NCBI RefSeq assembly: GCF_032594935.1
Contig: NZ_CP118734.1
Span: 710,001-774,000, forward strand
DNA: 64,000 nt
DNA from: Streptococcus sp. 29892
Lineage (GTDB): Bacteria > Bacillota > Bacilli > Lactobacillales > Streptococcaceae
Direction of reading: 5' to 3'
How positions within the stretch are numbered: the stretch's first letter is position 1; every line of letters starts with the position of its first letter. Below, one piece after another: positions 19,435 through 63,459 of the stretch. Position numbers and translations under genes: made by a program. A model generated the notes under the pieces. The model saw only the letters and a program-made list of their open reading frames with translations. It did no database searches and had not been told where the DNA came from.

Positions 19435-22401
19435 ATGAATAGGAAATATATTTTTTCTAAAATCGCAGAAGCTGAAGGTAGGCAACGAATGATAAAAACT
19501 AAAGCCTATGGTTTGGTTTCGACAATTACACTTGCTGGTGCTTTGGGACTTATGACTATTCCGAGTGTTGAAGCTGCGGAAATCAAAACAGGTCTTCAGA
19601 CTACCCCAATCCGACGTGCTGCGTCAGATTCACTTTCAGATGAGCAGAAATCTCATGTCATCCCAGGACAAATTACTGATGTACCGATGTCATGGATCAA
19701 TAGCGAGACAGGAAATGTGGAATGGATTACAGATTTTGTTTTAGTGTATGAAAAAACAGGAAAATGTAGTGCCATACCATCTGATGAAATTCAGATACCA
19801 GAAACTCCAAGTTCAGACACACCGGTGCCACCAAGTAGTGATACACCGGAAACTCCAAGTTCAGACACACCGGTGCCACCAAGTAGTGATACACCGGAAA
19901 CTCCAAGTTCAGACACACCGGTGCCACCAAGTAGTGATACACCGGAAACTCCAAGTTCAGACACACCGGTGCCACCAAGTAGTGGTACACCGGGAACTCC
20001 AGGTTCAGACACACCGAAAACTCCAAGTTCTCTAGCTCCGTCTAGTCCTATCCAAAAGGTAATACAAAAAGTCTTGCCAAATACTGGTGTAAAACAGGCT
20101 ACAACTCTAATTGTAGTAGGTGTTGGTTTGGCTACCTTTGCTGGTTACTTGATGTTTAGGAATAAACGTACAGGTAAAACTGTTGCTGTAGCTTTATTGG
20201 TTGCTACTGGGGCTGGGTTTAGCTCAGCTGCTTTAGCAGAATCAGTTGGCTTTTTAGATATTGTTCAACAAATTGAAATCAAATTGGATGAAAGATTCCA
20301 ACACACTGCTGAAGAAAGCGAATGTTGGAAGTATGTAGGTTACATACCAGTTATAGCTGAGGAATCCGTAAAAGAGTCCAATAAAACAGGTAATGTCAAT
20401 GTTAAATATGTTGATACCGAAGGTAAGGAAATCAAAGACCTGTACAACTTAGTAGTGGAGGGTAAGGTTTCAACGACTAAGACAACGACAACGACTGTAG
20501 ATGGAGTATCAAGCTCTACAGAAGAAACAGTTGCTTCAGGATTGACCTATGATGCAACAACTCAGAAACCAACAACTATTACTTTTGATGGTAAGGTTTA
20601 TGAATTCGTTCAAGTCAAAGACGGGGATGTAGAACAAGGTCTCGTTACAGAGGGTACTACAACAGTCACATATATCTACCGCCATGCTCCACAAATTACA
20701 GAAGCTGTCACAGAAACAACTAAAACAGGTAATGTCAATGTTAAATATGTGGATACCGAAGGTAATGAAATCAAAGACCTGTACAAACTAGTAGAGAATG
20801 GTTTGGTTTCAACGACTAAGACAACGATAACCACTGTAGATGGAGTACCAAGTTCTAAAGAAGAAACAGTTGCTTCAGGATTGACCTATGATGCAACAAC
20901 TCAGAAACCAACAACTATTACTTTTGATGGTAAGGTTTATGAATTCGTTCAAGTCAAAGACGGGGATGTAGAACAAGGTCTCGTTACAGAGGGGACTACA
21001 ACAGTCACATATATCTACCGCCATGTACCACAAATTACAGAAGCTGTCACAGAAACAACTAAAACAGGTAATGTCAATGTTAAATATGTGGATACCGAAG
21101 GTAATGAAATCAAAGACCTGTACAAACTAGTAGAGGAAGGTTTGGTTTCAACGACTAAGACAACGACAACGACTGTAGATGGAGTATCAAGCTCTACAGA
21201 AGAAACAGTTGCTTCAGGATTGACCTATGATGCAACAACTCAGAAACCAACAACTATTACTTTTGATGGTAAGGTTTATGAATTCGTTCAAGTCAAAGCT
21301 GGCGATGTAGAACAAGGTCTCGTTACAGAGGGGACTACAACAGTCACATATATCTACCGCCATGTACCACAAATTACAGAAGCTGTCACAGAAACAACTA
21401 CGACAGGTAATGTCAATGTTAAATATGTAGATACCGAAGGTAAGGAAATCAAAGACCTGTACAAACTAGTAGAGAATGGTTTGGTTTCAACGACTAGGAC
21501 AACGACAACCACTGTAGATGGAGTACCAAGTTCTAAAGAAGAGACAGTTGCTTCAGGATTGACCTATGATGCAACAACTCAGAAACCAACAACTATTACT
21601 TTTGATGGTAAGGTTTATGAATTCGTTCAAGTCAAAGCTGGCGATGTAGAACAAGGTCTCGTTACAGAGGGTACTACAACCATTACCTATATTTATAAAG
21701 TTGCTCCAAACACGACTGAAACTATCTCTACACCAATAACTGGTACCGTTAAGACCCGTTATGTTGATGCGGATACCGGGGAAGAGATTGTTTCCGGTTC
21801 TACCATTGTGGATAATGGTGTCGTAGCTAATAAGGTCACAACAATCGTCCGCAATGCAGCGGGAGAGGTGGTATCAGAGACGACTGAAAGAGTCCCAACT
21901 GGTCTGACTTACGATACCACAGCTGATAAAACTGCGAAAAATGCAGAGATCGCTTTGATCCGTCTTCCTGTTTTAGAAATGATTGACCATAATGGTAATC
22001 TCGTTACTCCGGATGCGGATGGATATGTGACTGTAACGGAAACTAAAACATGGGGTGAAAGCCAAATAACAACTTCAGACTATCAAACGGTCTATGATTT
22101 TGTGGAATACCATTATAAGAATAATATGAACCTAACGAAATTTTCTATAAAGAGTCTTGTTATTACTCCTGAAGGGGATCGCTATTCTGCTACTGCTGTC
22201 GTTGAATACACATATTATATAGGCAACAAAACAGTTGGTTATACTTTTGTCAGTGTGGATGAGGCCGAGGAAGGTGCTGTGGAAGAAGGAACTAAGACTA
22301 TCACCTACAAATACCGTCGTCAAGCCTATGAGGCAGAAGCAACAACCGCAATAGCGATGACTATTCAACCAGCTGAAATGACGACCTCGCTACCAGATTA
22401 G
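19435..22401 (+). CDS. Surface protein with internal LPNTG signal and MucBP-like repeats
   Basis: 988 residues. A signal peptide ends near residue 48 (SVEAA). A Pro/Ser/Thr stalk at about 123-200 is built of PETPSSDTPVPPSSDT repeats. A complete sortase signal follows at the wrong end of the protein: LPNTG at 214-218, a membrane helix about 222-241, then RNKRTGK. A second hydrophobic segment about 249-268 ends in ALAES like a signal-peptidase site. The remaining 720 residues hold four 113-residue MucBP-like repeats (from 20386, 20725, 21064 and 21403), a divergent fifth and a different C-terminal domain with no anchor. This anchor layout is known from streptococcal IgA1/Zmp proteases, but no protease motif (HExxH) was seen. 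It is probably an adhesin. Thr-rich runs in the repeats are possible glycosylation sites for the genes that follow. Confidence 0.85.
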   Translation: MNRKYIFSKIAEAEGRQRMIKTKAYGLVSTITLAGALGLMTIPSVEAAEIKTGLQTTPIRRAASDSLSDEQKSHVIPGQITDVPMSWINSETGNVEWITDFVLVYEKTGKCSAIPSDEIQIPETPSSDTPVPPSSDTPETPSSDTPVPPSSDTPETPSSDTPVPPSSDTPETPSSDTPVPPSSGTPGTPGSDTPKTPSSLAPSSPIQKVIQKVLPNTGVKQATTLIVVGVGLATFAGYLMFRNKRTGKTVAVALLVATGAGFSSAALAESVGFLDIVQQIEIKLDERFQHTAEESECWKYVGYIPVIAEESVKESNKTGNVNVKYVDTEGKEIKDLYNLVVEGKVSTTKTTTTTVDGVSSSTEETVASGLTYDATTQKPTTITFDGKVYEFVQVKDGDVEQGLVTEGTTTVTYIYRHAPQITEAVTETTKTGNVNVKYVDTEGNEIKDLYKLVENGLVSTTKTTITTVDGVPSSKEETVASGLTYDATTQKPTTITFDGKVYEFVQVKDGDVEQGLVTEGTTTVTYIYRHVPQITEAVTETTKTGNVNVKYVDTEGNEIKDLYKLVEEGLVSTTKTTTTTVDGVSSSTEETVASGLTYDATTQKPTTITFDGKVYEFVQVKAGDVEQGLVTEGTTTVTYIYRHVPQITEAVTETTTTGNVNVKYVDTEGKEIKDLYKLVENGLVSTTRTTTTTVDGVPSSKEETVASGLTYDATTQKPTTITFDGKVYEFVQVKAGDVEQGLVTEGTTTITYIYKVAPNTTETISTPITGTVKTRYVDADTGEEIVSGSTIVDNGVVANKVTTIVRNAAGEVVSETTERVPTGLTYDTTADKTAKNAEIALIRLPVLEMIDHNGNLVTPDADGYVTVTETKTWGESQITTSDYQTVYDFVEYHYKNNMNLTKFSIKSLVITPEGDRYSATAVVEYTYYIGNKTVGYTFVSVDEAEEGAVEEGTKTITYKYRRQAYEAEATTAIAMTIQPAEMTTSLPD
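19801..19992 (+). repeat. Four tandem 48-bp repeats, Pro-rich stalk
   Basis: Four near-identical 48-bp units, each coding for 16 residues of the type ETPSSDTPVPPSSDTP, with a diverged partial fifth unit to about 20030. Such arrays change copy number readily. Confidence 0.9.
20386..21741 (+). repeat. Four tandem 339-bp repeats, MucBP-like
   Basis: Four units of 339 bp (113 codons) start at 20386, 20725, 21064 and 21403, each beginning TGNVNVKYVDTEG. Most differences are single substitutions, and long stretches are identical at DNA level, so they were amplified or homogenised recently. Confidence 0.93.
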
Positions 22402-22433
22402 TATTAGACTAAGTGATCCAGACATGACTATAT

Positions 22434-22485
22434 AAGCGAACAGGACTGCCTTCTGTTAATAGAGGTGGAAACTTGTTCGCTTTTT
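22434..22485 (+). terminator. Terminator after surface protein gene
   Basis: AAGCGAACA pairs with TTGTTCGCTT over a long loop and five T follow. The loop is larger than usual, so read-through into the glycosyltransferase gene is possible. Confidence 0.6.
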
Positions 22486-22520
22486 CTACAGTAAATGAAA
22501 AATAGAAAGACGGTGAAGCT

Positions 22521-23930
22521 ATGACAGTCTATACCCTTAGGCGATTCATGTCGCCTAAAATATTCGGTTACGAATCTACCCAAACCTACCGACATGCAGT
22601 ATTGAGGAAGCATGGAATCGCCAATAAATTTTTAGTAACCACCCCTTTTGTATTAGAGCATGACTACCAACGTTTACGTGTCATGGGCTTTGAACCAGAG
22701 GATGTTATTAACCTTCCAGGTACCTATTCAGATATGGATACTACTACCTTTACTTATACACTTGAAGCCTTTGAGAAAACATTGGAAGTAGGTGCCCAGC
22801 TATTAAAAGAAGGCCCACAATACAGAATCTACAAGGTAGCGAATGGATTCATTGACGTTGATACCAATCTAGATGGTTTTGTAGTTGGTATCTTGCATCG
22901 CAACGCCAACTTAGAAATTGTTTCGACAACCTTTTGTTCTCAAGGTCCGTACTATACTGCGTATGGAAATGACGAGCAATCCTTTGAGTATTATAATCGA
23001 GATGGTTCTATCGCGATCTCTGGCTACTATCAAGGTCCTAAGGAGTATCCAGTGGTCTCCTATTATTTGGATGAAGAGGAGTTCAAAGAAGAGGACTTGG
23101 TGATACGTTATCTGGATGAGCATGGGGCCGAGAAGGATGTTATCATCAAAGATCAGTTGCAATCTCACTTTCCTGGTCTGATAGCTTACGCTGAGGAGAG
23201 AGGGATGATTTTCCGAGATGTCCTACACTATAATCATTATCATGGACTAGAACACAACAAAAACTATCAAACCGTTCTTCCGAACAAGCTATTGACGGCT
23301 AGTCCTTATCTCAATCAGAGACTGGTAGAAGAGGGATATGATGCCACATTTATCCATCCGGTAGGTGTAGCAGTTGCTTCTCATCCTCCAATGGGATTAT
23401 CCTCTAATAAGGTATTCCTTTCAAGCCACTTTAACAGAATTAAGCGGGTTGATATGGCTATTGAGGCTTTTCGTCAGGTACCGGAGTTAGAGTTGCACAT
23501 CTACGGAGGGATGGCGAATGAAGTTGAAAAGTTTAGGAAAACTCATCCGATCCCTGACAATGTGATCTTGAAAGGTTTTGTGGATACAGCCCTTATCCCC
23601 CGCCATAGTTTTACAGCTTACCTCTCTTGCTCTATCAGTGAGATGTATGCCAATGCCATGGTCGAAAGCTTGGGGGTCGGCTTGATTCCCATTCTTTCTA
23701 AGGTTGACTTTGGTCACAACCAAGTTTTGGACAAACTTGACTACGGTACAGGTTTTGAAACCGTTGAGGAGTTGGTGGAGGTTTTGAGAAAGCTTGTCGC
23801 ATGGCCGACGGATTATCGCAAGCAAGTTTCAGAAAAGGTGCTAGAGATCGCTCAAGAGTTTTCTCATGATGAGGCTGAAAGTGCCCTCCTCAACTGGCTA
23901 AAATCGGTCGGCTCTAGAGATGTAGAGTAA
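22521..23930 (+). CDS. GT4-type glycosyltransferase with DUF1975 domain
   Basis: 469 residues. The layout matches TarM/GtfA-like enzymes: an N-terminal half-fold split by a beta-rich DUF1975 insertion (about 70-200), then the C-terminal GT-B half with FLSSHFNRIKRVDMAIEAF near 300, LHIYGGM near 340, and a donor-site loop SISEMYANAMVESLGVGLIPI near 380. Relatives add sugars to wall teichoic acid or to Ser/Thr of surface adhesins. It lies 120 bp after the surface protein and before two sialic-acid genes, which suggests it puts the first sugar on that protein. No GtfB partner is seen here. Acceptor and sugar are inference. Confidence 0.8.
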   Translation: MTVYTLRRFMSPKIFGYESTQTYRHAVLRKHGIANKFLVTTPFVLEHDYQRLRVMGFEPEDVINLPGTYSDMDTTTFTYTLEAFEKTLEVGAQLLKEGPQYRIYKVANGFIDVDTNLDGFVVGILHRNANLEIVSTTFCSQGPYYTAYGNDEQSFEYYNRDGSIAISGYYQGPKEYPVVSYYLDEEEFKEEDLVIRYLDEHGAEKDVIIKDQLQSHFPGLIAYAEERGMIFRDVLHYNHYHGLEHNKNYQTVLPNKLLTASPYLNQRLVEEGYDATFIHPVGVAVASHPPMGLSSNKVFLSSHFNRIKRVDMAIEAFRQVPELELHIYGGMANEVEKFRKTHPIPDNVILKGFVDTALIPRHSFTAYLSCSISEMYANAMVESLGVGLIPILSKVDFGHNQVLDKLDYGTGFETVEELVEVLRKLVAWPTDYRKQVSEKVLEIAQEFSHDEAESALLNWLKSVGSRDVE

Positions 23931-24060
23931 AACCTCTTTCTTTGAGAGAAGCTCAATGCTGTTATGGTTCGATGTCTTCTCTTCTTGATGTGAGCTTTTA
24001 GGAAGACTAGCACAAAGAAAGGAATTTTGAGGAAAAATAGATGATAAATGAGGAATACCA

Positions 24061-24993
24061 TTGAGAAATTTAATCTTTTGCCAAACTCCTTTTCAGCTAA
24101 AGGTTGCATTGGCAATCATGCAGTTAAATTTAGAGGATACCTGGGAATTGGTAATTTTAAAGAGTCAGCTAGTCGAAACCAAGTGGCCCCCTTTGTTGGA
24201 GCAGCTCCCACCGAGTGTTCAGCTACACTTACTTGACCACAGTATTGATGAGACCTTATATCAAGGAATTTCTTCTCTGCCATCGGAAATCGACTATCTC
24301 TACGTAGCCTCGCTTGATTCCGTACCGGCTTCTATCTATCTAGAATTTCACCCGGATACCAAGATAAAAACCTTTGATGATGGGACGGCTTCTATTTTAA
24401 AAAATGGAGTTTTTGGAACTCCTGGTCAATACAAGACTTTCCAGCACTTGCACCCATCTTGGGATCAAGAGCGCATAAAGGCTTCGTCCCTAGAACATTA
24501 TACTGTATTTGATGTTCCAAGCATTATCCCTGCACCAGTGGTTACCAGATTATCACTCCCCTTTGAAATGGAGGCTGGAAGTGATGTGAAAAAGCCCTTG
24601 GCTCGTGTTTTTATTGGTCAAGAAATACAAGATTCTAGGATGGATACTGCCAATTATACGCAAGCAGTGTGTATACAGTTGGGTATTGATTACTATTTAA
24701 AGCATCCTAGAAAACCAATAGATATTAGCTATGTAAATCAAGTAGAAACAGACCTACTAGCAGAAGATTTTGTATTTCGCTTATTAGCTAAGTATGAATG
24801 TGTGGAAGTCTACCATTACTATTCCACCACAGCCTTATTGTTAAAAGATCTACCAAATGTGAAAGTGCGAGGGATCATGGTATCGAGCGTAAAGAAATTG
24901 CAGGATGAACTGGCAACTTTTGGGCTAAAATTTAACAAGCTTGCCTATTATGCTTCGCAAGTAAAAGAGCATAAGAATCATAATGAAGATTGA
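24061..24993 (+). CDS. GT52-type glycosyltransferase, sialyltransferase-like
   Basis: 310 residues. The start is a TTG at 24061, chosen because it follows AGGA and gives MRNLIFCQTPFQL, the typical N-terminus of glycosyltransferase family 52, whose members include alpha-2,3-sialyltransferases. A D-D-G motif (IKTFDDGTAS) lies near 112, and the C-terminal part contains VYHYYSTTALLLKDLPNVKV, where the family has its CMP-binding His and Ser/Thr. The next gene is a CMP-sialic acid synthetase homologue, which supports sialic acid as donor sugar. GT52 also includes other transferases, so the sugar is not certain. The 130 bp before the start hold nothing recognised. Confidence 0.72.
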   Translation: MRNLIFCQTPFQLKVALAIMQLNLEDTWELVILKSQLVETKWPPLLEQLPPSVQLHLLDHSIDETLYQGISSLPSEIDYLYVASLDSVPASIYLEFHPDTKIKTFDDGTASILKNGVFGTPGQYKTFQHLHPSWDQERIKASSLEHYTVFDVPSIIPAPVVTRLSLPFEMEAGSDVKKPLARVFIGQEIQDSRMDTANYTQAVCIQLGIDYYLKHPRKPIDISYVNQVETDLLAEDFVFRLLAKYECVEVYHYYSTTALLLKDLPNVKVRGIMVSSVKKLQDELATFGLKFNKLAYYASQVKEHKNHNED

Positions 24994-25043
24994 ACCACTA
25001 AGACCATTAGAACAAGTTTTATAGTAGAGATTGGAGGTGGAAT

Positions 25044-25778
25044 GTGAGGGTAGCAATTATTCCTATGCGGTCTGGGTCCAAAGGAGTCCCTCATAAAAAT
25101 ATTAGAATGATTGGTGGAAAACCGTTGGCTTGTTATACGATAGATTTAGCCTTAGAGTGTCAACTGTTTGATGAAATTGTCATATCTACTGATTCCGAGA
25201 ACTATATTTCTTTATTAACATCCTATTATAGGGATAAGTTGCTATATGTCAAACGTCCAATTGACCTTGCGACAGATACTTCAACTATGGTTGAAACCAT
25301 ATTGCATGTATTTTCAGAAAGAAGATATAGTCTAGATACCAATTTTATTGCATTTCAGGTCACTAGTCCGTTGCGTTCAGTCTCTTTTATTCGTGATTTT
25401 TCAAATTCTTGGTCTGATAAATATGACGCCTGTATTACAGTTAAACCGTTTGATAGAAATCTGTCTTTGGTAGCACCGCTATTACAAAATGGTTTATTTC
25501 ATTTACCTAAATTGGATAATACGAAAACAAATAGACAATCACAAGGCATGATTTATTACCCAGATGGTTCAATGTGGATGTCCACAGTAGGCAAATTTAT
25601 GAAGAACCAATCATTTTACACTTCTACTACATTTGGATATCTGTCACCTGAATGGTCTAGATATGACGTTGATACTGAATTAGATTTATTTATAGTTGAG
25701 CAACTAATGCGAAGAGCAAACGAATCCAACAGAGATAGGTATTCTACTAATGAGCAGGAATCTAACGAAATTGGCTAA
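25044..25778 (+). CDS. CMP-sialic acid synthetase-like cytidylyltransferase
   Basis: 244 residues starting at a GTG behind GGAGGTGGAAT. The N-terminus IPMRSGSKGVPHKN is the nucleotide-binding signature of acylneuraminate cytidylyltransferases (NeuA type). QVTSPLRS near 108 and the DVDTELDLFIVEQLM tail are also family features. It would activate a nonulosonic acid with CTP for the transferase encoded upstream. No neuB, neuC or neuD lies here, so the sugar must come from elsewhere, such as a capsule locus or uptake. It is slightly more AT-rich than the flanking backbone genes. Confidence 0.78.
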   Translation: MRVAIIPMRSGSKGVPHKNIRMIGGKPLACYTIDLALECQLFDEIVISTDSENYISLLTSYYRDKLLYVKRPIDLATDTSTMVETILHVFSERRYSLDTNFIAFQVTSPLRSVSFIRDFSNSWSDKYDACITVKPFDRNLSLVAPLLQNGLFHLPKLDNTKTNRQSQGMIYYPDGSMWMSTVGKFMKNQSFYTSTTFGYLSPEWSRYDVDTELDLFIVEQLMRRANESNRDRYSTNEQESNEIG

Positions 25779-25810
25779 GAAATTAGTCCAAGATAGTAGA
25801 AACAAAAATA

Positions 25811-25869
25811 AAAACACAGATAGTTCGGCTGGATTTTATCAAAATCAGCTCGAATCTATCTGTGTTTTT
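25811..25869. terminator. Bidirectional terminator before mnmE end
   Basis: AAAACACAGATAG pairs with CTATCTGTGTTTT, with an inner GATTTTatcAAAATC stem. It separates the glycosylation genes from the converging mnmE. Confidence 0.85.
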
Positions 25870-25904
25870 ATTTACTGGCTAGTTTTTGCCCATCCTCCTT
25901 GTTC

Positions 25905-52550: not shown

Positions 52551-53954
<1,404 letters not shown>

Positions 53955-53979
53955 ACACCTTGGAACGAAAGGGATAATG

Positions 53980-54004
53980 AAAAGCCTTGATTGCAAGGCT
54001 TTTT
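53980..54004 (+). terminator. Terminator after rlmD
   Basis: AAAAGCCTTG pairs with CAAGGCTTTTT around ATTG. Confidence 0.85.
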
Positions 54005-54096
54005 GCTTTATGGTGGGTAAGTATCAGAGTGAGAAAATTTTTGGAATGAGTAGAAGTGATAGCTAGAAATTATCAGTTTCTATTTCCATTTACCCT

Positions 54097-54153
54097 GTGG
54101 GTACGTGTTTGTTTCCATTGACAAGGAGTTTGTGGGAATAGAAATGTACCCAC
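54097..54153. repeat. Inverted repeat in the element's left end
   Basis: GTGGGTACGTGTTTGTTTCC at 54097-54116 is matched inverted by GGGAATAGAAATGTACCCAC at 54134-54153 with four mismatches. A smaller hairpin TAGAAA/TTTCTA lies at about 54064-54082. The gap 53955-54345 has no gene. Such repeats could be recombinase binding sites or relics. Confidence 0.45.
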
Positions 54154-54273
54154 CTTGTTTGAATCAAGTGAAGTGTAGTTGAAGGAAATCTGTTGAAAGC
54201 AATACTTCATTTTACCGAATAAGTAATAATTTAGGCAACTTCAAATCGATTAAAAAAAACTATTTTAAAGGTT

Positions 54274-54305
54274 AAGAGTAGACAAAAATTGTCCACTCTT
54301 TTTTG
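54274..54305 (+). terminator. Terminator-like hairpin before the recombinase remnant
   Basis: AAGAGTAGACAA pairs with TTGTCCACTCTT around AAA, one mismatch, followed by TTTT. Confidence 0.65.
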
Positions 54306-54345
54306 TAAACTCAATTTATCAATAAATGAAATGAGGGAATGTAAA

Positions 54346-54516
54346 ATGAAATATTTTGAGGTTGAGTTAGAAAATCCTGATGAATTTTTAAAACTACAAA
54401 CAGAAGATTTTGTGAAAGCTAATCGCTTGCTACTAAGGAAGATAATCCAGAGCGTTACAGTCTATGAAGAACACTTCGTCATATCCTTTAAATCTGGCAT
54501 CGAATTGGAAGTATGA
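54346..54516 (+). pseudogene. C-terminal remnant of a large serine recombinase
   Basis: 56 codons from ATG at 54346 behind GAGGGAATG. The tail LLRKIIQSVTVYEEHFVISF followed by KSGIELEV is the usual end of large serine recombinases (coiled-coil end and beta tail). The catalytic and zinc domains are absent, so it cannot recombine DNA. It suggests that an element with such an integrase once lay at rlmD. The short ORF may be translated, but no function is expected. Confidence 0.65.
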
Positions 54517-54538
54517 GACTCATTCCATAACTTTTATA

Positions 54539-54567
54539 TTGAACATATCATCTTGTTGTGTTATACT
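54539..54567 (+). promoter_or_regulatory. erm(B) promoter, copy 2
   Basis: TTGAAC at 54539-54544 and TATACT at 54562-54567, 17 bp apart. The sequence differs from the promoter region of the first erm(B) copy up to about 54570. Confidence 0.75.
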
Positions 54568-54624
54568 ATAAATTGAAGTTAAATTAGATGCTAAAAATTT
54601 GTAATTAAGAAGGAGGGATTCGTC

Positions 54625-54720
54625 ATGTTGGTATTCCAAATGCGTTATCAAATGCGTTATGTAGATAAAACATCTACTATTTTGAAACAGACTAAAAACA
54701 GTGATTACGCAGATAAATAA
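54625..54720 (+). CDS. ermBL: erm(B) leader peptide with four-residue duplication
   Basis: 31 codons and a stop, starting MLVFQMRYQMRYVDKTST behind GGAGGG. A 12-bp tandem duplication repeats QMRY, so the residues needed for drug-dependent arrest (the MRxVDK core) are kept but moved from about codon 10 to codon 14. The nascent chain in the exit tunnel is therefore longer at the arrest point. Induction by erythromycin may still work but could be altered. Confidence 0.88.
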   Translation: MLVFQMRYQMRYVDKTSTILKQTKNSDYADK

Positions 54721-54844
54721 ATACGTTAGATTAATTCCTACCAGTGACTAATCTTATGACTTTTTAAACAGATAACTAAAATTACAAACAAATCGTTTAA
54801 CTTCTGTATTTGTTTATAGGTGTAATCACTTCAGGAGTGATTAC

Positions 54845-55582
54845 ATGAACAAAAATATAAAATATTCTCAAAACTTTTTAACGAGTGAAAAAGTACTCAA
54901 CCAAATAATAAAACAATTGAATTTAAAAGAAACCGATACCGTTTACGAAATTGGAACAGGTAAAGGGCATTTAACGACGAAACTGGCTAAAATAAGTAAA
55001 CAGGTAACGTCTATTGAATTAGACAGTCATCTATTCAACTTATCGTCAGAAAAATTAAAACTGAATACTCGTGTCACTTTAATTCACCAAGATATTCTAC
55101 AGTTTCAATTCCCTAACAAACAGAGGTATAAAATTGTTGGGAATATTCCTTACCATTTAAGCACACAAATTATTAAAAAAGTGGTTTTTGAAAGCCATGC
55201 GTCTGACATCTATCTGATTGTTGAAGAAGGATTCTACAAGCGTACCTTGGATATTCACCGAACACTAGGGTTGCTCTTGCACACTCAAGTCTCGATTCAG
55301 CAATTGCTTAAGCTGCCAGCGGAATGCTTTCATCCTAAACCAAAAGTAAACAGTGTCTTAATAAAACTTACCCGCCATACCACAGATGTTCCAGATAAAT
55401 ATTGGAAGCTATATACGTACTTTGTTTCAAAATGGGTCAATCGAGAATATCGTCAACTGTTTACTAAAAATCAGTTTCATCAAGCAATGAAACACGCCAA
55501 AGTAAACAATTTAAGTACCGTTACTTATGAGCAAGTATTGTCTATTTTTAATAGTTATCTATTATTTAACGGGAGGAAATAA
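54845..55582 (+). CDS. erm(B): 23S rRNA (adenine-N6)-dimethyltransferase Erm(B)
   Basis: 245 residues, standard length, with motif [12 protein letters not shown] and the normal catalytic motif NIPY at 100-103. It dimethylates A2058 and gives MLS-B resistance. It differs from the first copy in the window by one residue (Tyr103 here, Phe there). Surrounding genes are those of pSM19035/Inc18-type resistance DNA: topoisomerase remnant, delta, omega, epsilon, zeta. Confidence 0.98.
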
Positions 55583-55586
55583 TTCT

Positions 55587-56012
55587 ATGAGTCGCTTTTG
55601 TAAATTTGGAAAGTTACACGTTACTAAAGGGAATGTAGATAAATTATTAGGTATACTACTGACAGCTTCCAAGGAGCTAAAGAGGTCCCTAGCGCCTACG
55701 GGGAATTTGTATCGATAAGGGGTACAAATTCCCACTAAGCGCTCGGGACCCCTTGTAGGAAAATGTCCTAAGTGTGGCAACAATATTGTATTAAAAAAAT
55801 CGTTTTATGGTTGTTCAAATTATCCTGAATGTACCTTCACTTTAGCTGAACATTTTAGAAAGAAAAAACTCACCAAAACAAATGTAAAAGAATTACTAGA
55901 GGGAAAAGAAACCCTGGTAAAAGGAATCAAAACGAAAGATAGAAAGTCCTACAATGCCGTTGTAAAAATCGGAGAAAAGGGATATATTGATTTTATCTCT
56001 TTTTCAAAATAA
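55587..56012 (+). pseudogene. Topoisomerase-type remnant split by a palindrome
   Basis: A single frame runs from MSRFCKFGKLHVTKGNVDKL to the TAA at 56010-56012 but has an in-frame TAA at 55716-55718, inside a 75-bp palindrome. The 3' half encodes a four-cysteine zinc ribbon (CPKCGN, CSNYPEC) and a C-terminal domain (VKIGEKGYIDF), as at the end of bacterial topoisomerase I/III. The main enzyme domains are missing. The 43-codon 5' part could be made as a short peptide. This remnant follows erm(B) on many Gram-positive plasmids and transposons. Confidence 0.78.
55680..55754. repeat. 75-bp imperfect palindrome
   Basis: The left arm starts AAGAGGTCCCTAGCGCCTAC and ends TTTGTA; the right arm ends in CGCTCGGGACCCCTT and is its near-complement, around TCGATAAGG. 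It is 75 bp, a multiple of three, inserted in the topoisomerase remnant and carries the stop codon. I recall similar palindromes in pAMbeta1/pIP501/Tn1545-type DNA. Confidence 0.85.
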
Positions 56013-56016
56013 GCAT

Positions 56017-56041
56017 AAAAGCCCTTTAAAGAGGGCTTTTA
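56017..56041 (+). terminator. Terminator after topoisomerase remnant
   Basis: AAAAGCCCT pairs with AGAGGGCTTTT. It insulates the partition genes from erm(B) transcription. Confidence 0.85.
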
Positions 56042-56047
56042 TATATT

Positions 56048-56124
56048 AATCACAAATCACTTATCACAAATCACTTATCACAAATCACAAGTGATTAATC
56101 ACAAATCACTTGTGATTTGTGATT
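56048..56124. promoter_or_regulatory. Omega heptad operator/partition site, delta promoter
   Basis: Eleven contiguous 7-bp units of the type WATCACW: direct at 56048 to 56089 (six), inverted at 56090-56096, direct at 56097-56110 (two), and inverted at 56111-56124 (two). These are the known binding sites of the omega dimer, which both represses the delta promoter and acts as the centromere-like site for partition. Confidence 0.95.
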
Positions 56125-56170
56125 CCTAATGATACAATATTACTATACAAAAAAAGAATGGGGCGTAGTT

Positions 56171-57025
56171 ATGGAGAAGGAAGAACTCAAAATACTTGAA
56201 GAATTAAGACGTATTTTAAACAGTAAAAATGAAGCGATTGTTATCTTAAACAATTATTTTAAAGGTGGTGTTGGAAAGTCAAAATTATCGACTATGTTTG
56301 CTTACTTGACAGACAAATTTAATTTAAAAGTTTTAATGATCGATAAGGACTTACAAGCAACATTGACAAAAGACTTAGCAAAAACATTTAAGGTAGAATT
56401 GCCACGTGTTAATTTTTATGAAGGACTGAAAAATGGAAACTTGGCTTCTTCTATTGTTCATTTGACTGATAATTTAGACTTGATCCCTGGCACGTTTGAT
56501 TTGATGTTACTGCCAAAATTAACTCGCTCATGGACTTTTGAAAATGAAAGTAGATTGCTTGCTACTCTTTTAGCACCTTTAAAAAGTGACTATGATCTCA
56601 TTATTATTGATACTGTACCAACGCCAAGCGTTTATACAAATAATGCAATCGTGGCAAGTGATTACGTCATGATCCCTTTACAAGCAGAAGAAGAAAGTAC
56701 AAACAACATTCAAAACTATATTTCCTATTTGATTGATTTACAAGAACAGTTTAACCCTGGACTAGATATGATCGGTTTTGTTCCTTATTTAGTTGATACG
56801 GACAGCACAACGATAAAATCAAACCTGGAAGAACTGTACAAGCAACATAAAGAAGATAACTTGGTTTTCCAAAATATTATCAAGCGAAGTAATAAAGTAA
56901 GTACCTGGTCTAAAAACGGCATTACAGAACACAAAGGCTATGACAAAAAAGTTTTATCTATGTATGAGAACGTATTTTTTGAAATGCTTGAGCGAATCAT
57001 TCAATTAGAAAACGAAAAAGAATAG
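56171..57025 (+). CDS. delta: ParA-type partition ATPase delta
   Basis: The start at 56171 (MEKEELKILEEL) gives 284 residues, as in the pSM19035 delta protein; an upstream ATG at 56129 would fall in the promoter region. A deviant Walker A, KGGVGKSKLS, lies near 48, with LMIDKD and IIIDTVPTPS as the other ParA motifs. Delta works with omega bound to the heptads to move plasmid copies apart. On an integrated element it may help keep an excised circle. Confidence 0.95.
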   Translation: MEKEELKILEELRRILNSKNEAIVILNNYFKGGVGKSKLSTMFAYLTDKFNLKVLMIDKDLQATLTKDLAKTFKVELPRVNFYEGLKNGNLASSIVHLTDNLDLIPGTFDLMLLPKLTRSWTFENESRLLATLLAPLKSDYDLIIIDTVPTPSVYTNNAIVASDYVMIPLQAEEESTNNIQNYISYLIDLQEQFNPGLDMIGFVPYLVDTDSTTIKSNLEELYKQHKEDNLVFQNIIKRSNKVSTWSKNGITEHKGYDKKVLSMYENVFFEMLERIIQLENEKE

Positions 57026-57053
57026 AATCACAAATCACTTGTGATTTGTGATT
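57026..57053. promoter_or_regulatory. Omega heptad operator, omega promoter
   Basis: Four contiguous heptads: AATCACA, AATCACT, TGTGATT, TGTGATT. They begin one base after the delta stop and overlap the promoter of the omega-epsilon-zeta operon, giving autoregulation by omega. Confidence 0.93.
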
Positions 57054-57095
57054 GTTGATGATAAAATAAGAGTAAGAAGAAATAGAAAGAAGTGA

Positions 57096-57311
57096 GTGGT
57101 TGTGGGAAATTTAGGCGCACAAAAAGCAAAACGAAATGATACACCAATCAGTGCAAAAAAAGATATTATGGGGGATAAGACGGTTCGTGTTCGTGCTGAC
57201 TTGCACCATATTATAAAAATCGAAACAGCAAAGAATGGCGGAAACGTAAAAGAAGTTATGGATAAAGCCTTAGAAGAATATATTCGGAAATATTTACCTG
57301 ACAAACTTTAA
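57096..57311 (+). CDS. omega: Ribbon-helix-helix regulator omega
   Basis: 71 residues from a GTG start. The MetJ/Arc-type ribbon-helix-helix is at DKTVRVRADLHHIIKIETAK. It binds WATCACW heptads as dimers, represses its own operon and delta, and takes part in partition. The length and sequence match the pSM19035 protein closely. Confidence 0.96.
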   Translation: MVVGNLGAQKAKRNDTPISAKKDIMGDKTVRVRADLHHIIKIETAKNGGNVKEVMDKALEEYIRKYLPDKL

Positions 57312-57327
57312 AAGGAGTGAAAATGAA

Positions 57328-57600
57328 ATGGCAGTTACTTATGAAAAAACATTTGAAATAGAGATCATTAACGAATTATCGGCAAGCGTTTATAATCGAG
57401 TATTAAACTATGTTTTGAATCATGAATTAAATAAAAATGACTCTCAATTATTGGAAGTCAATTTATTAAACCAATTAAAGCTTGCAAAACGTGTAAATCT
57501 TTTTGATTATTCTTTAGAAGAATTACAAGCCGTTCATGAGTATTGGCGGTCAATGAATCGCTATTCAAAACAAGTTTTGAATAAAGAGAAAGTGGCTTAA
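57328..57600 (+). CDS. epsilon: Epsilon antitoxin
   Basis: 90 residues, all helical, with the conserved [22 protein letters not shown]. It forms an epsilon2-zeta2 complex that blocks the ATP site of zeta. It lies 16 bp after omega and 1 bp before zeta. Confidence 0.96.
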
Positions 57601-57601
57601 T

Positions 57602-58465
57602 ATGGCAAATATAGTCAATTTTACTGACAAACAATTTGAAAATCGCTTAAATGATAATTTAGAAGAATTGGTTCAAGGAAAAAAAGCGGTTGAATCGCCA
57701 ACCGCTTTTTTACTTGGTGGGCAACCAGGGTCAGGGAAAACGAGTTTGCGATCAGCAATTCTTGAAGAAACACAAGGGAATGTTATTGTCATTGATAATG
57801 ATACCTTTAAACAACAGCACCCTAATTTTGATGAACTAGCGAAACTTTATGAGAAAGACGTAGTAAAACACGTTACCCCTTATTCTAATCGCATGACAGA
57901 AGCGATCATAAGCCGTTTAAGCGATCAAGGCTATAACTTGGTGATTGAAGGTACAGGACGAACAACAGACGTTCCCATTCAAACCGCAACAATGCTTCAA
58001 GCCAAAGGTTATGAAACAAAAATGTATGTCATGGCAGTACCTAAAATCAACTCATATTTAGGAACAATTGAACGATATGAAACCATGTATGCAGATGATC
58101 CAATGACAGCCAGGGCAACACCAAAACAAGCGCATGATATTGTTGTCAAAAACTTACCGACCAATTTAGAAACCCTTCATAAAACGGGCTTATTTAGCGA
58201 TATAAGGCTTTACAATAGAGAAGGAGTGAAACTCTATTCAAGCTTAGAAACGCCTTCCATTAGTCCGAAAGAGACCTTAGAAAGAGAATTAAATCGTAAA
58301 GTATCAGGGAAAGAAATTCAACCGACTTTGGAGAGAATAGAGCAAAAAATGGTTCAAAATCAACACCAAGAAACCCCTGAATTTAAAGCAATTCAACAAA
58401 AATTGGAAAGCTTGCAGCCACCTACACCACCAATACCCAAAACACCTAAACTTCCAGGACTTTAA
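57602..58465 (+). CDS. zeta: Zeta toxin (UDP-N-acetylglucosamine kinase)
   Basis: 287 residues. Walker [10 protein letters not shown] at 39-47 with Lys46, the catalytic Asp in [12 protein letters not shown] near 67, and VIEGTGRT near 117. Zeta phosphorylates UDP-GlcNAc, which poisons wall synthesis when the short-lived epsilon is lost. It therefore keeps the element, and the erm(B) beside it, in the population without selection. Confidence 0.96.
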
Positions 58466-58480
58466 ACCTTAAAAAAGGAA

Positions 58481-58518
58481 AAGAGTAGTTACCAAAAAAC
58501 GGTAACTACTCTTTTTTT
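58481..58518 (+). terminator. Terminator after zeta
   Basis: AAGAGTAGTTACC pairs perfectly with GGTAACTACTCTT, followed by a T run. Confidence 0.92.
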
Positions 58519-58527
58519 ATAAAAACA

Positions 58528-58825
58528 TTTCCTCATGTTTTAAAAGCTGATCGAGAAATAAAGCACACAACGGTATTCTTTCTTTTTTCAGTTGGTACAT
58601 TTTGCAGTCTGTAACGTGTCATTTACTGTTTGTTACCTTAACATATCCAGTCGAAAACACAAGGGTATATAAACGAGCAAGCTCGCCCTTGTGTTTTCTT
58701 TGTGTCTATGTTGCGTTCTCGTCACAGCAAACGACACGAACACACTGGCGAAAATGAACCAACAAAACGAAAAAAGAAAGGAGCGTATACTGTAATTTAT
58801 TTCTAGCTTTTAAAACATGAGGAAA
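58528..58825. repeat. Noncoding block bounded by 21-bp perfect inverted repeats
   Basis: TTTCCTCATGTTTTAAAAGC begins the left arm (58528-58548) and its exact complement ends the block (58805-58825); AGAAATAAA next to both arms also pairs, after a 5-bp offset. Inside is a hairpin GAAAACACAAGGG/CCCTTGTGTTTTC (58653-58698) with an inner CGAGCAAGCTCG, and a second, weaker one near 58712-58742. No gene fits. It may be a transfer or replication origin, an RNA, or a decayed insertion; none is proven. Confidence 0.7.
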
Positions 58826-58905
58826 ACAGCTTCACTTCCTCAAACGCCTAACAAAAATGGTTGTCAAAAAACTAAAAATCAAAAAAAAGAAAAGAGGAAA
58901 AGAAA

Positions 58906-59223
58906 ATGGAAAAAACAAAAAAATTACAATTAGAAGATTTTACAGAAAATGAGTTTTTTGGAACACAAGAACAGAAATATCTAAAAGCTCAAGTAAGAGA
59001 AGAGCTAAAAGAGCAAGGCTTTATCATAGATAGCAGTTTTGAGGGCGATTTTAAAACATGGATAGGTGTATACGCAAGACCAAAAGATAAACCGACCTAC
59101 TTAGACCCTCAAAACGATAAAGAAGCAGAAGAACAAGAGCAATATTCTATTAACGGCTTTAAACAAGATTTTAGCGAATGGTTTGAGTGGGAAATAAAAA
59201 ATTTGAAAATTAAAGAAATGTAA
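58906..59223 (+). CDS. Hypothetical protein of the plasmid-type region
   Basis: 105 residues, acidic, with no signal or membrane segment. It starts MEKTKKLQLEDFTENEF behind AGAGGAAAAG. The sequence YSINGFKQDFSEWFEWEIKN near the end is Trp/Phe-rich. I do not recognise a family. A terminator follows directly, and it is the only gene between the zeta operon and the minus-strand fragments. Confidence 0.6.
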   Translation: MEKTKKLQLEDFTENEFFGTQEQKYLKAQVREELKEQGFIIDSSFEGDFKTWIGVYARPKDKPTYLDPQNDKEAEEQEQYSINGFKQDFSEWFEWEIKNLKIKEM

Positions 59224-59225
59224 AA

Positions 59226-59254
59226 AAAAGCCTAGCAAAAAAAGCTAGGTTTTT
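59226..59254 (+). terminator. Terminator after hypothetical gene
   Basis: AAGCCTAGC pairs with GCTAGGTTT around seven A and ends in T5. Confidence 0.8.
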
Positions 59255-59283
59255 CTTTTAGGTAAAACACCAAAAAGAAAAAC

Positions 59284-59433
59284 CTAAGAAGGATAAAATA
59301 AGTTGTTCCACTTGCGGTGCAGTTGCTCCTCGTTCCAAACCCAACTTATTTCTTTGCAAAGATATTTGTATTTGACTAACACCTTTCCTCGAATGGTAAA
59401 AGCTAAAGCAATTAAAAAAGGAAGAACAAACAT
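59284..59433 (-). CDS. Possible small ORF coupled to the repressor fragment
   Basis: 49 codons, starting MFVLPFLIALAFTIRGKVLV, on the minus strand. Its ATG overlaps the stop of the repressor fragment (TAATG), so ribosomes could pass to it. The first 14 residues are hydrophobic, the rest rich in Trp, Tyr and Lys. It may be real, or the tail of another broken gene. Its coding strand also holds a long-range inverted repeat, AAATAAGTTG/CAACTTATTT. Confidence 0.35.
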   Translation of the reverse strand: MFVLPFLIALAFTIRGKVLVKYKYLCKEISWVWNEEQLHRKWNNLFYPS

Positions 59434-59531
59434 TAAGAACAAGCTCGATTAATATCTAAAAGATTTGCAAGCTCTGATTGAGAGTATTTTTTCTCGTTTC
59501 TTCTTTCTTTTAGACGAATCCCTGAAAACAT
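59433..59531 (-). pseudogene. Truncated XRE-type repressor
   Basis: 32 codons on the minus strand reading MFSGIRLKERRNEKKYSQSE then LANLLDINRACS and a stop. This is the first two helices of a Cro/C1 helix-turn-helix; the recognition helix and dimer domain are missing. It keeps a full promoter and a good ribosome site (GAGGTGATACATC). The break occurs after NRA, where family members usually continue into the recognition helix. A deletion probably fused it to unrelated sequence. Confidence 0.7.
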
Positions 59532-59564
59532 GATGTATCACCTCTGTTGCTTTATTATGCAACA

Positions 59565-59593
59565 ATTATACCTGAAAAAGAGTTGAACTTCAA
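59565..59593 (-). promoter_or_regulatory. Promoter of the truncated repressor
   Basis: On the minus strand TTGAAG (59588-59593) and TATAAT (59565-59570) are 17 bp apart. GTTGC-ataataaa-GCAAC between the -10 and the ribosome site is a palindrome that may be the old autoregulatory operator. Confidence 0.75.
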
Positions 59594-59627
59594 GGATTTT
59601 GTTATTTTGACTTTAGATTGCGAATTT

Positions 59628-59755
59628 CTACAGATTAAAATAAAAATCTGTAGTATTTTCTGGGATATAAAACACATTTAAAGTTATAATATTCGAGTTT
59701 GGTTTGTTTTCTTTAAAATAAATCTGTAGATTTTTGTTGTACAATGCTACAGATT
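59628..59755. promoter_or_regulatory. Four CTACAGATT boxes upstream of the restriction gene
   Basis: CTACAGATT occurs at 59628-59636 and 59747-59755 and inverted (AATCTGTAG) at 59645-59653 and 59721-59729, giving two inverted pairs in 128 bp. The second pair abuts TATAAT at about 59760, a likely -10 for the endonuclease gene at 59800. This is a plausible operator set for a controller protein or the truncated repressor. Confidence 0.6.
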
Positions 59756-59799
59756 TTTGATATAATTTTTTAAAATATATTTTGTGTCGAGGAGAAATT

Positions 59800-60999
59800 A
59801 TGGCAAAAGTAGATTATTCAATTCAACGTTTAGATGATATAAGTTTTGCAGATATTGTTAAGGAAACACTGTGTAAGAAACATAACAAAGCAATTTATTA
59901 TTCTGCGTTTCTAAGAGAGGACAGTGTGTTAGAAATACGGGAGTTACTTGAAGAGGAGACTGATTTTACTGCTGTTATTGGTATTAGAAATGGTTCAACT
60001 TCATCCCAGGGATTAAGAGCGTTAGTTGATACTGGCGTAAGTGTTTTTGTCGTTGATACAGGGTCGCAAACAACTATTTTTCATGCGAAATCATTGTTAT
60101 TAATTGATGAAGAAAACGAGAGGGCTTATGCAGTAATTGGTAGTTCTAACTTTACCGTAGGTGGTTTTCATAGGAATATTGAGAATAACGTAAGTTTAGA
60201 GTTAGACTTAACCGATGATTCTGATAAAAAATTTTATGATGATTTTCTTAAAGGATATCAACAATTGTTGTCTTTTGTAGATGCTGAAAATGAAGATGGG
60301 GTAAACACAAGTAACGTTTTAAAAGTAGATAATAATAATCTTGTGGATGACTTGCTTTCAGATGGACGAGTAATTGACGAAACAATTAATAGGGTAAAAA
60401 TTAGTTTAGGTAAATCTTCTATTCGTAGTAAGACAGTCAAACAAATGAAACTTACTCCTATTAAGAAAAAGCAAAATTTAACTAAGAATTCAAAAAATAA
60501 TGATGGAGGTATTAAGGTTAATAAAACAAGTCCTGTTTTAACATCTACATTATCAGGAACAGTAAGTGAAGTATGGAAATCCAAGGAGCTGAAAGAAAGA
60601 GATTTAACAATTCCTTCTAATAGTAGAACTAACTCAACAGGTTCTATGCTAATGAAAAAAGGAGCGTATGATATTGATCAGCAGAGCTATTTCTACAATG
60701 AAGTGTTTAACCAACTTATTTGGTCGAATCGTGAAGGTAAACCGACATATAATTATTTTACAGAAGCTAAATTTCACTTCATTATAGAAGGAATTGAGTA
60801 TGGACCATATACATTAACATTGAAATATGATGAGAGAACCGATACGAAGAGTTATCAGCAGAAACAACCGAATGTAAGTTTATCTTGGGGTGAAGCAAGA
60901 GATATTATAAAAAATCGTAATCTGTTAGGAAAAATAATGACTCTTTATAAAGTTGATGGAACAACGGATGAGTTCTTAATTGAAATTACTGGTGAATAG
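59800..60999 (+). CDS. Phospholipase-D-family restriction endonuclease (NgoFVII/BfiI-like)
   Basis: The start at 59800 follows GAGGAGAAATT and gives 399 residues; an upstream TTG at 59782 lies before the ribosome site. An N-terminal PLD-type nuclease domain has the HxK motif in FHAKSLLLID near 108 followed by GSSNFTVGG near 126 and an acidic stretch, the active-site layout of metal-independent BfiI-type enzymes. A basic linker (about 205-250) leads to a C-terminal domain (about 280-399) resembling the B3-like DNA-binding domain of the NgoFVII family. The neighbouring adenine methyltransferases support a restriction-modification role. The recognition site is unknown. Confidence 0.75.
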   Translation: MAKVDYSIQRLDDISFADIVKETLCKKHNKAIYYSAFLREDSVLEIRELLEEETDFTAVIGIRNGSTSSQGLRALVDTGVSVFVVDTGSQTTIFHAKSLLLIDEENERAYAVIGSSNFTVGGFHRNIENNVSLELDLTDDSDKKFYDDFLKGYQQLLSFVDAENEDGVNTSNVLKVDNNNLVDDLLSDGRVIDETINRVKISLGKSSIRSKTVKQMKLTPIKKKQNLTKNSKNNDGGIKVNKTSPVLTSTLSGTVSEVWKSKELKERDLTIPSNSRTNSTGSMLMKKGAYDIDQQSYFYNEVFNQLIWSNREGKPTYNYFTEAKFHFIIEGIEYGPYTLTLKYDERTDTKSYQQKQPNVSLSWGEARDIIKNRNLLGKIMTLYKVDGTTDEFLIEITGE

Positions 61000-61103
61000 G
61001 TTTACTAATTTTCTTATGTGTTGATATAAATCCAAGCCTATGCTAATATCGTCACACAATAGAAATTGTGAAATATATGGCTTTTTGAAAAGGAGCGAAG
61101 AAA

Positions 61104-62819: not shown

Positions 62820-63412
62820 TCGTTCCTGATTACCTAAACTGTAGTTGTAGCTATGATATTGTTGTTGATAGTGATATTTTTACTGAATGTGCGAATATCA
62901 ATGGAACCGATGTTCCAAATAGCTACATTCCATTAGTAAAAGGGAGTTTGAAAACTCCATATCATAAGCCTGAAGTAGATTGGTATATTAGATGGGATAA
63001 AAGTGAGATTAATGATTATCATGTTTTTTAAAAAGCACGATTTCAGAATAGTAGCTATTATTTCAAATATGGCATTGCAACTCAAATGCTTAAAAGTAAA
63101 AAAGTTCGTGCTTGTCTAATGGAAGACAGTGTATTTGATCAAAGTATTGTAGGTATTTTTCCAAAAAAATCATCAGATTTACTATTTATTTTAGCATTGC
63201 TTAATTCTGCTATAGTCAATGAAATTATTCATTCTATTAATCCAACAGTGAATAATTCAGCGAATTATCTAAAACGTATTCCTATACCAAAAATAAACGA
63301 AATTGATAGACAACAACTTAACAAACTTGTATTAGGTATTGTAGATAATCATGAGGACAATCAGAGGGAGCTTGATGAGCTCTTTGATAGACTATATGCT
63401 AAATTGAGCTAA
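62768..63412 (+). pseudogene. C-terminal fragment of a second adenine methyltransferase, with stop
   Basis: One frame runs from about 62768 to 63412 with a single in-frame TAA at 63029-63031. The first part has GSLKTPYHKPEVDWYIRWDK; after the stop it goes on with KARFQNSSYYFKYGIATQML and then VFDQSIVGIFPKK, the typical C-terminal recognition domain of Eco31I/Alw26I/BREX-type adenine methyltransferases. The whole catalytic N-terminus is missing, so this is a 5'-deleted and nonsense-mutated remnant. The frame is the same on both sides of the stop, so a point change is likelier than an indel. Confidence 0.72.
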
Positions 63413-63414
63413 GA

Positions 63415-63456
63415 AAAAAGGTTGGGACTCCATCGAGAGTTCCCAGCCTTTTTTCA
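63415..63456. terminator. Bidirectional terminator
   Basis: AAAAAAGGTTGGGACTC pairs with GAGAGTTCCCAGCCTTTTTT with small mismatches. It separates the restriction genes from the converging ATPase gene. Confidence 0.85.
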
Positions 63457-63459
63457 TAG

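Follow-up and report, generated by a model that had tools for sequence, protein, structure and literature searches.

A candidate NeuB-less sialylation cassette beside a MucBP surface protein with an internal LPNTG hairpin in Streptococcus sp. 29892

Results

The locus

The DNA analysed here, referred to as the window, is a stretch of 64,000 nucleotides covering positions 710001-774000 of the 2.06 Mb genome of Streptococcus sp. 29892; the surface proteins encoded in it match Streptococcus suis records. Four open reading frames (ORFs), all on the + strand, were found at the positions claimed for them in an earlier note on this DNA. They encode: (i) a surface protein of 988 amino acids (aa; 19435..22401) with MucBP repeats and an internal LPNTG motif in a membrane hairpin; (ii) a GT4 glycosyltransferase of 469 aa (22521..23930); (iii) a GT52 sialyltransferase-like protein of 310 aa with a TTG start (24061..24993); and (iv) a NeuA-like protein of 244 aa with a GTG start (25044..25778), which resembles synthetases of cytidine monophosphate (CMP)-sialic acid. 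As far as can be judged from sequence, this cassette, which has no NeuB, probably builds a short O-glycan with sialic acid on the MucBP surface protein whose gene comes first in it.

The three enzymes

The GT52 protein scored 84.0 bits with PF07922 (curated cut-off 26.1). Among its solved relatives three sequences of the N. meningitidis sialyltransferase NST were convincing (best 2yk5, E 1.7e-20), the fourth match having an E-value of 0.47, and the GT52 identity given in the earlier note is thereby retained, with the meningococcal enzyme as the nearest solved protein. F105-D-D-G108 (a (D/E)DG motif), D191 and H215-P216 (an HP motif) are invariant in the 13 rows of alignment A2 and are aligned with NST; D191 and H215 fall on Asp258 (D258) and His280 (H280), the acid/base residues of that enzyme. 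A second form of the cassette was seen at loci L081, L089, L143 and L144, where the GT52 region (4 of the 15 GT52 places found in the genus, see below) lies inside a protein of 528-561 aa adjoining a GT4 gene and a large surface protein (Muc_B2 in L081 and L143, MucBP in L089). The one that was scanned (L081) is a GT52-GT2 fusion, and this form might add one more sugar.

The cytidylyltransferase scored 66.6 bits with PF02348 (cut-off 22.6), and its nearest solved relative is the Neisseria CMP-NeuAc synthetase 1eyr (E 1.2e-22). The A3 profile, built from 11 cassette members, matched five solved sequences, all of them NeuA-type. Residues R9, K13, K18, Q105, R164, D208 and D210 match NmCSS, where they presumably correspond to the P-loop Arg/Lys, the Gln, the Arg and the Asp pair, but R173 of NmCSS is Tyr172 here. 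The label of CMP-sialic acid synthetase is favoured by the solved structures, which rank NeuA nearest, but not by NCBIfam, where PseF comes first below its cut-off; membership of the PseF family was rejected, as the score with TIGR03584 was 94.8 bits against a cut-off of 205.7.

The Pfam matches of the GT4 protein were Glycos_transf_1 and Glyco_trans_1_4; DUF1975, under which it had first been filed, gave no match at E≤1 and that label is dropped. Its likeness to GtfA was kept in a weakened form. The scores were 78.2 bits with the GtfA model TIGR02918 (cut-off 574.6) and 31.0 and 30.7 bits with the SdgA and SdgB models NF047880 and NF047881 (cut-off 800), so the enzyme is predicted to be a distant relative of GtfA and SdgB that lies under both cut-offs. 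E374 and E382 (E-x7-E), N378 and A379 are invariant in the 14 rows of alignment A4. No GtfA-length relative was found in the genome of strain 29892 with a query that detects such frames in other genomes of the genus.

Source of the sialic acid

NeuB (PF03102, E≤0.001) was absent from all 17 genomes searched, including the whole genome of strain 29892, which bears out the absence of neuB noted earlier; a control search was positive in 9 of 14 known genomes. Because NeuB is missing from all 17, the sugar is most likely scavenged host sialic acid. NanE, a marker of sialic acid catabolism, was found in 17/17 genomes. Besides NanE, the nan locus of strain 29892 encodes a binding protein, a permease, a YhcH protein and a lyase similar to solved N-acetylneuraminate lyases, together with a kinase-like ORF and an esterase. 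Some 3 kb upstream of these genes is that of an LPXTG protein of 1628 aa, which has a GH85 endo-beta-N-acetylglucosaminidase domain (L140:1700-6586, within positions 518001-538000 of the same genome).

A symporter of the SSF family was found in 6 of the 17 genomes, each time beside cassette genes. The symporter at L080 scored 30.7 bits with PF00474 (cut-off 22.8) and is closest to the sialic acid transporter SiaT (5nv9, E 1.9e-34; next match 4.6e-11); S60, Q82 and R135 of SiaT are kept, T63 is replaced by Ser, and T58, N247 and Q250 differ. According to the mutant data quoted from PMC5931594, mutation of S60, Q82, R135 or T63 abolished transport by SiaT. Full-length copies of the gene are present in L080, L083, L085 and L142, a shorter one in L088, and split ones in L084 and L086. 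The set had been described as a minimal system; this is so in S. suis, but in some other streptococci the set includes the SiaT-like symporter.

Co-occurrence across genomes

Searches of the genus covered 284 genomes, one per species, and their counts therefore refer to species and not to frequencies within S. suis; the first GT52 search covered 147 genomes. GT52 (A2, E≤1e-10) was found at 15 places in 12 of the 284 genomes, and NeuA of the cassette type (over 370 bits) at 14 places in the same 12 genomes. A GT4 gene of the cassette family lies within about 2.1 kb at 15/15 GT52 places, an association that exceeds chance, and a large surface protein adjoins 14 of them, the contig ending at the fifteenth. 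The glycosyltransferases are thus not found mostly apart from a surface protein, and the cassette appears separate from capsule, both as the earlier note expected. Pfam scans of 8 of the 14 neighbouring surface proteins (window, L080, L081, L083, L085, L087, L089 and L143) gave MucBP or Muc_B2 in seven; for L087 only an anchor was returned. Another 15 genomes hold a NeuA relative of 146-212 bits, 13 of these in frames of 413-442 aa, and none of the 15 has an A2 match at E≤1e-10.

A scan of named genomes gave seven loci, in S. suis strain 15, Streptococcus sp. SK643, 2342, 68, k-402 and 596553, and Gemella haemolysans DP3_5B. In Gemella haemolysans the genes for GT4, GT52 and a 2520-aa MucBP protein stand in a row. 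Several loci show signs of decay: the split symporter genes mentioned above, an interrupted second GT4 gene (L087), a surface protein that lacks its usual end (L084), remnants of a cassette (L142), a stop inside the NeuA-like gene (L144) and an interrupted hairpin gene (L148).

Architecture of the surface protein

The surface protein, all features of which are on the + strand, begins with a signal peptide (SP1, residues 1-48, 19435..19578; boundary estimated from sequence). This is followed by an N-domain (residues 57-111, 19603..19767) that is conserved in alignments A1, A5 and A8 and ends at Cys111; block means of the predicted local distance difference test (pLDDT) for this domain were 72-83 and 69-84 in two AlphaFold2 models. 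A Pro/Ser/Thr stalk of variable length in relatives occupies residues 112-212 (19768..20070), residues 49-217 containing 18.3% P, 17.2% S and 13.6% T. The sorting motif LPNTG (residues 214-218, 20074..20088; TIGR01167 22.9 bits, cut-off 15.9; Pfam Gram_pos_anchor at 211-245) is followed by membrane segment 1 with the basic loop RNKRTGK (residues 219-248, 20089..20178) and by an internal signal peptide-like segment (SP2, residues 249-268, 20179..20238) ending in ALA. The three hydrophobic segments have their first windows at residues 24-40, 219-235 and 249-265. The end of SP2, ALA followed by ES, resembles a signal-peptidase site, and Ala at -1 was seen by eye in the listed hairpin sequences (a script pattern missed the PILA form). 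Cys297 (20323..20325) is the second of the protein's two cysteines. The MucBP and Thr-rich repeats and the C-terminal region fill 20407..22398; MucBP was recognised by PF06458 (66.8 bits, cut-off 23) and by a fold match, and Thr makes up 19.3% of residues 269-988, in runs from TT to TTTTT.

The MucBP protein, the Thr-rich repeats and the Pro/Ser/Thr stalk of the original description are therefore all present, but the stalk precedes the repeats, LPNTG is internal and the C-terminal anchor is missing. No C-terminal sorting signal was found: the sole LPxTG is at residues 214-218 of 988, and the C-terminus ends in TTSLPD. A classical LPXTG wall-anchored protein was ruled out on these grounds.

Relatives of the hairpin

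Two protein searches yielded 46 distinct proteins, mostly labelled S. suis and including the window protein and its own paralogue, and all 46 were examined. The hairpin region is missing in four (P0016, P0047, P0048 and P0049). Of the 42 proteins with a hairpin, 40 have one cysteine ahead of the stalk, another behind the hairpin and no others, and 41 have LPxTG. P0032, whose sequence begins only after the first cysteine, has a single one. P0045, the protein of L079, has no cysteine and LPKSG in place of LPxTG; this joint loss was counted as one event. In genome G136 the hairpin gene is interrupted. A minimal form of the module is the 252-aa protein of genome G168, which belongs to a different species (L147:9926-10684), which has two signal-peptide-like segments, an internal LPKTG, exactly two cysteines at matching places, and a Pro-rich tail without MucBP. 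Its hairpin is 39% identical to that of the window over 95 residues (E 2e-14, a single comparison). Members of one gene family of 418-434 aa, called transposase-like from their scattered position only, lie beside or inside hairpin-protein loci (L071:3750-5054, L075:8601-9857 and L077:12932-14224).

Hairpin proteins carrying MucBP were found in 8 of the 284 genomes, at 11 loci, and a GT4 of at least 41% identity in exactly the same 8 genomes and 11 loci; these numbers of hairpin proteins are minima, since the search missed the M26 type described below. GT52 and NeuA are also present at three of the loci (window, L071 and L073). At the other eight (L070, L072 and L074-L079) the GT4 stands without them beside a paralogous surface protein. 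Taken with the G168 hairpin, whose genome has no GT4, these eight GT4-only loci suggest a link between the GT4 and the MucBP cargo, to which GT52 and NeuA were added.

The layout extends beyond MucBP proteins. Beside the cassette GT4 gene in L080, L088 and L142 (a GT4 fragment in L142), an internal LPNTG and two hydrophobic segments open a protein of ~1980-1995 aa (L080:2885-8821, L088:3439-9426 and L142:10919-16864). M26 IgA1-protease domains were found in the L080 and L142 proteins, and the L088 protein is 91% identical to that of L142. These precursors lack the cysteine pair: the only cysteine of the L080 and L142 proteins falls within the signal peptide, and the L088 protein has one in its signal peptide too and another in an upstream extension. 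No M26 peptidase match was obtained with Pfam in the window surface protein. BLASTP of the G168 hairpin protein against the N-part of the L080 protein was marginal (E 0.001), which we read as a shared layout and not as evidence of common descent. The other surface proteins checked beside cassettes have a C-terminal LPxTG, or none in the stretch examined, and no cysteine.

Other features of the window

The gap between the genes for the surface protein and the GT4 holds a terminator-like hairpin (22434..22482, + strand; z -2.85, 1 of 200 shuffles as good), and a strong one closes the cassette (25806..25873; z -9.04, 0 of 200 shuffles as good) before a convergent gene that we take to be mnmE-like; both were missing from the list of the pattern scan. 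A perfect sigma-70-type match (12 of 12) is located antisense within the NeuA-like gene (25225-25252, - strand), and the region as a whole showed no excess of such matches. Further downstream the G+C content drops to about 0.33 after an RlmD/RumA-like methyltransferase gene (52554-53954). The part of 52554-63903 that follows this gene looks mobile, with genes for an rRNA adenine dimethylase (Erm-type only by guess), a ParA-like ATPase, a zeta toxin, a PLD-like protein and an Eco57I-type methyltransferase.

Discussion

Proposed pathway

The pathway that we propose would begin with the import of sialic acid, in this strain probably via the ATP-binding cassette (ABC) transporter encoded at the nan locus, in another part of the genome, and in some other streptococci via the SiaT-like symporter inside the cassette. 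The NeuA-like protein would convert the sugar to CMP-sialic acid. In the cytosol, the GT4 enzyme would put a first sugar, probably an N-acetylhexosamine, on Ser/Thr residues of the repeats or the stalk, and the GT52 enzyme would cap it with sialic acid. The surface protein would then leave the cell by the ordinary Sec route. After export, the precursor would probably undergo two cleavages, one at the internal LPNTG by sortase and the other behind ALA268 by signal peptidase, to leave a wall-linked N-chain and a MucBP C-chain that are joined by one shared small domain and a Cys111-Cys297 disulfide. The sialylated glycan on the neighbouring protein, as first put forward, agrees with gene order and co-occurrence; what has changed is that the sugar would be scavenged, that GT52 and NeuA appear as an add-on, and that the protein is built differently.

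That a precursor with two signal peptides and an internal LPxTG is cut into two cysteine-clamped chains, which rebuild one domain and are decorated by their own NeuB-less sialylation cassette, is put forward tentatively: we hold it to be possible rather than probable. The same caution applies to its description, by analogy, as a disulfide-locked form of N-terminal LPXTG anchoring that may display a disguised mucin-binding protein. The hairpin layout itself is known in kind. In the pneumococcal IgA1 protease, Bender and Weiser reportedly found in 2006 that an atypical N-terminal LPNTG is cut by sortase and that the protease part stays on the cell. Like the IgA1 protease/Zmp (M26) proteins, the window protein has an internal LPNTG close to its N-terminus, a basic loop flanked by two hydrophobic segments, and a cargo that follows the hairpin, and it lacks a C-terminal anchor. 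It differs in its cysteine pair, its Pro-rich stalk and its MucBP repeats in place of a protease. Two-chain anchoring would thus have a reported precedent, and the disulfide clamp would be the new part.

Alternative explanations

The hairpin protein could instead remain uncleaved, with both arms outside on a two-pass membrane anchor and the LPxTG vestigial. Cleavage of this protein is a prediction from sequence, and the relative P0045 has LPKSG for LPxTG. We nevertheless regard an uncleaved protein as unlikely, given that LPxTG is kept in 41/42 hairpin proteins, that the exception has also lost both cysteines, that motif and cysteine pair persist in a 39%-identical hairpin with a different cargo, and that IgA1-protease-type proteins of the same layout are said to be cut by sortase at their N-terminal LPNTG.

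Sialylation itself would be misread if the cytidylyltransferase and GT52 used a different CMP-sugar, or if GT52 moved a non-sialic sugar, the glycan then being free of sialic acid. GT52 also includes non-sialyl enzymes, and PseF is the best NCBIfam model for the cytidylyltransferase (94.8 bits, cut-off 205.7). However, pseudaminic and legionaminic acid also require a NeuB-family synthase, and PF03102 was absent in 17/17 genomes. The five solved sequences matched by the A3 profile are all NeuA-type, D191 and H215 align with the residues taken to be D258 and H280 of NST, and some cassettes include a SiaT-like symporter. A non-sialic glycan is for these reasons judged distinctly unlikely.

Least probable, in our view, is that GT52 and the NeuA-like protein serve to sialylate a different polymer of the envelope (capsule, teichoic acid or glycolipid) and that the surface-protein gene is a mere neighbour: known GT52 and NeuA enzymes do mostly serve polysaccharides and lipooligosaccharide (LOS), and eight paralogue loci have the GT4 without them, but GT4 is near 15/15 GT52 places and a large surface protein beside 14 in differing chromosomal settings, the Gemella locus repeats the pattern, NeuB is missing from 17/17 genomes, and the 15 genomes with the other NeuA type gave no A2 match at E≤1e-10.

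Several observations weigh against sialylation of the MucBP protein by the cassette as proposed here. At the locus itself, the terminator-like hairpin at 22434..22482 parts the surface-protein gene from the GT4 gene. Among the enzymes, D191 is not on the invariant list of the wider, gappier alignment A6, although it is invariant in A2; R173 of NmCSS is replaced by Tyr172 in the NeuA-like protein; and the best NCBIfam model for that protein is PseF, far below its cut-off. The genomic associations are likewise incomplete: of the 11 MucBP hairpin loci only 3 have GT52 and NeuA as well, the NeuA of Gemella (234 bits) sits outside its cassette, elsewhere in the genome, and G168 has a hairpin protein and no GT4 match in its genome. 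The identities of GT4 and hairpin domain are correlated over 8 loci (r 0.935, 60/5000 permutations), only through two types, and within one type (5 loci) r is -0.39. With respect to supply, the symporter gene is absent at L082 and L087, and no SSF symporter was found in the eight genomes with a MucBP hairpin protein. The cargo of the ABC transporter of strain 29892 was judged from its neighbours, the closest solved relatives of its binding protein being named only as sugar-binding proteins. The nan lyase falls below the NCBIfam cut-offs for NanA, and it would compete for sialic acid.

Relation to known systems

Prior art was searched among open-licence PMC papers. The glycosylation of serine-rich repeat adhesins (GtfA/GtfB, SecA2/SecY2) resembles the cassette in that the gene of a GT4 whose N-terminal region is GtfA-like adjoins that of a large Ser/Thr-rich adhesin; here, however, the GT4 reaches 78 bits against a GtfA cut-off of 574.6, and the presumed substrate has MucBP repeats. 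SdgA and SdgB are GT4 enzymes that act without GtfB on adjacent adhesins, the staphylococcal Sdr proteins. The arrangement of a GT4 beside an adhesin is alike and there is a weak SdgB similarity (30.7 bits), but the cut-off of 800 bits is far from reached, and GT52 and NeuA here join the GT4. In Neisseria and Haemophilus, host sialic acid or CMP-sialic acid decorates the surface by means of a GT52-type enzyme. Scavenged sialic acid and the type of enzyme would be shared with the cassette, whereas the acceptor in these Gram-negatives is lipooligosaccharide and here would be a protein of a Gram-positive organism. Sialylation of LOS by scavenging is also dealt with in PMC9631793 and PMC11078009.

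In group B Streptococcus (GBS), Srr1 and PilA are reported to carry sialic acid (PMC4583379, PMC12355684). For PilA, PMC4583379 identifies no sialylation enzymes; its authors offer the speculation that polysaccharide glycosyltransferases modify it, and name CpsK as the only characterised GBS sialyltransferase. Srr1 and PilA are thus sialylated streptococcal surface proteins, as proposed here; the difference is that in the window the enzyme genes adjoin that of the protein and that NeuB is lacking. MucBP repeats are also reported from S. suis (PMC7870872), where MRP and other LPXTG proteins with MucBP are the closest comparison. The LPXTG of MRP is C-terminal, whereas the window protein has an internal LPXTG, an internal signal peptide and two cysteines.

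Biological meaning

Protein sialylation itself is not new in streptococci, as PilA and Srr1 illustrate; a dedicated locus without NeuB would be. If the two chains are clamped as proposed, the two-cysteine hairpin would supplement an unusual, though known, type of anchoring with a covalent lock, for which the short G168 protein would be a convenient model. Related enzyme sets lie beside surface proteins in other streptococci and in Gemella. If the proposed pathway is correct, protein-linked sialic acid in streptococci would gain a genetic basis, and a dependence on sialic acid supply is predicted. Streptococci would then disguise single surface proteins with host-derived sialic acid, a possible host mimicry that requires neither a capsule nor synthesis of their own.

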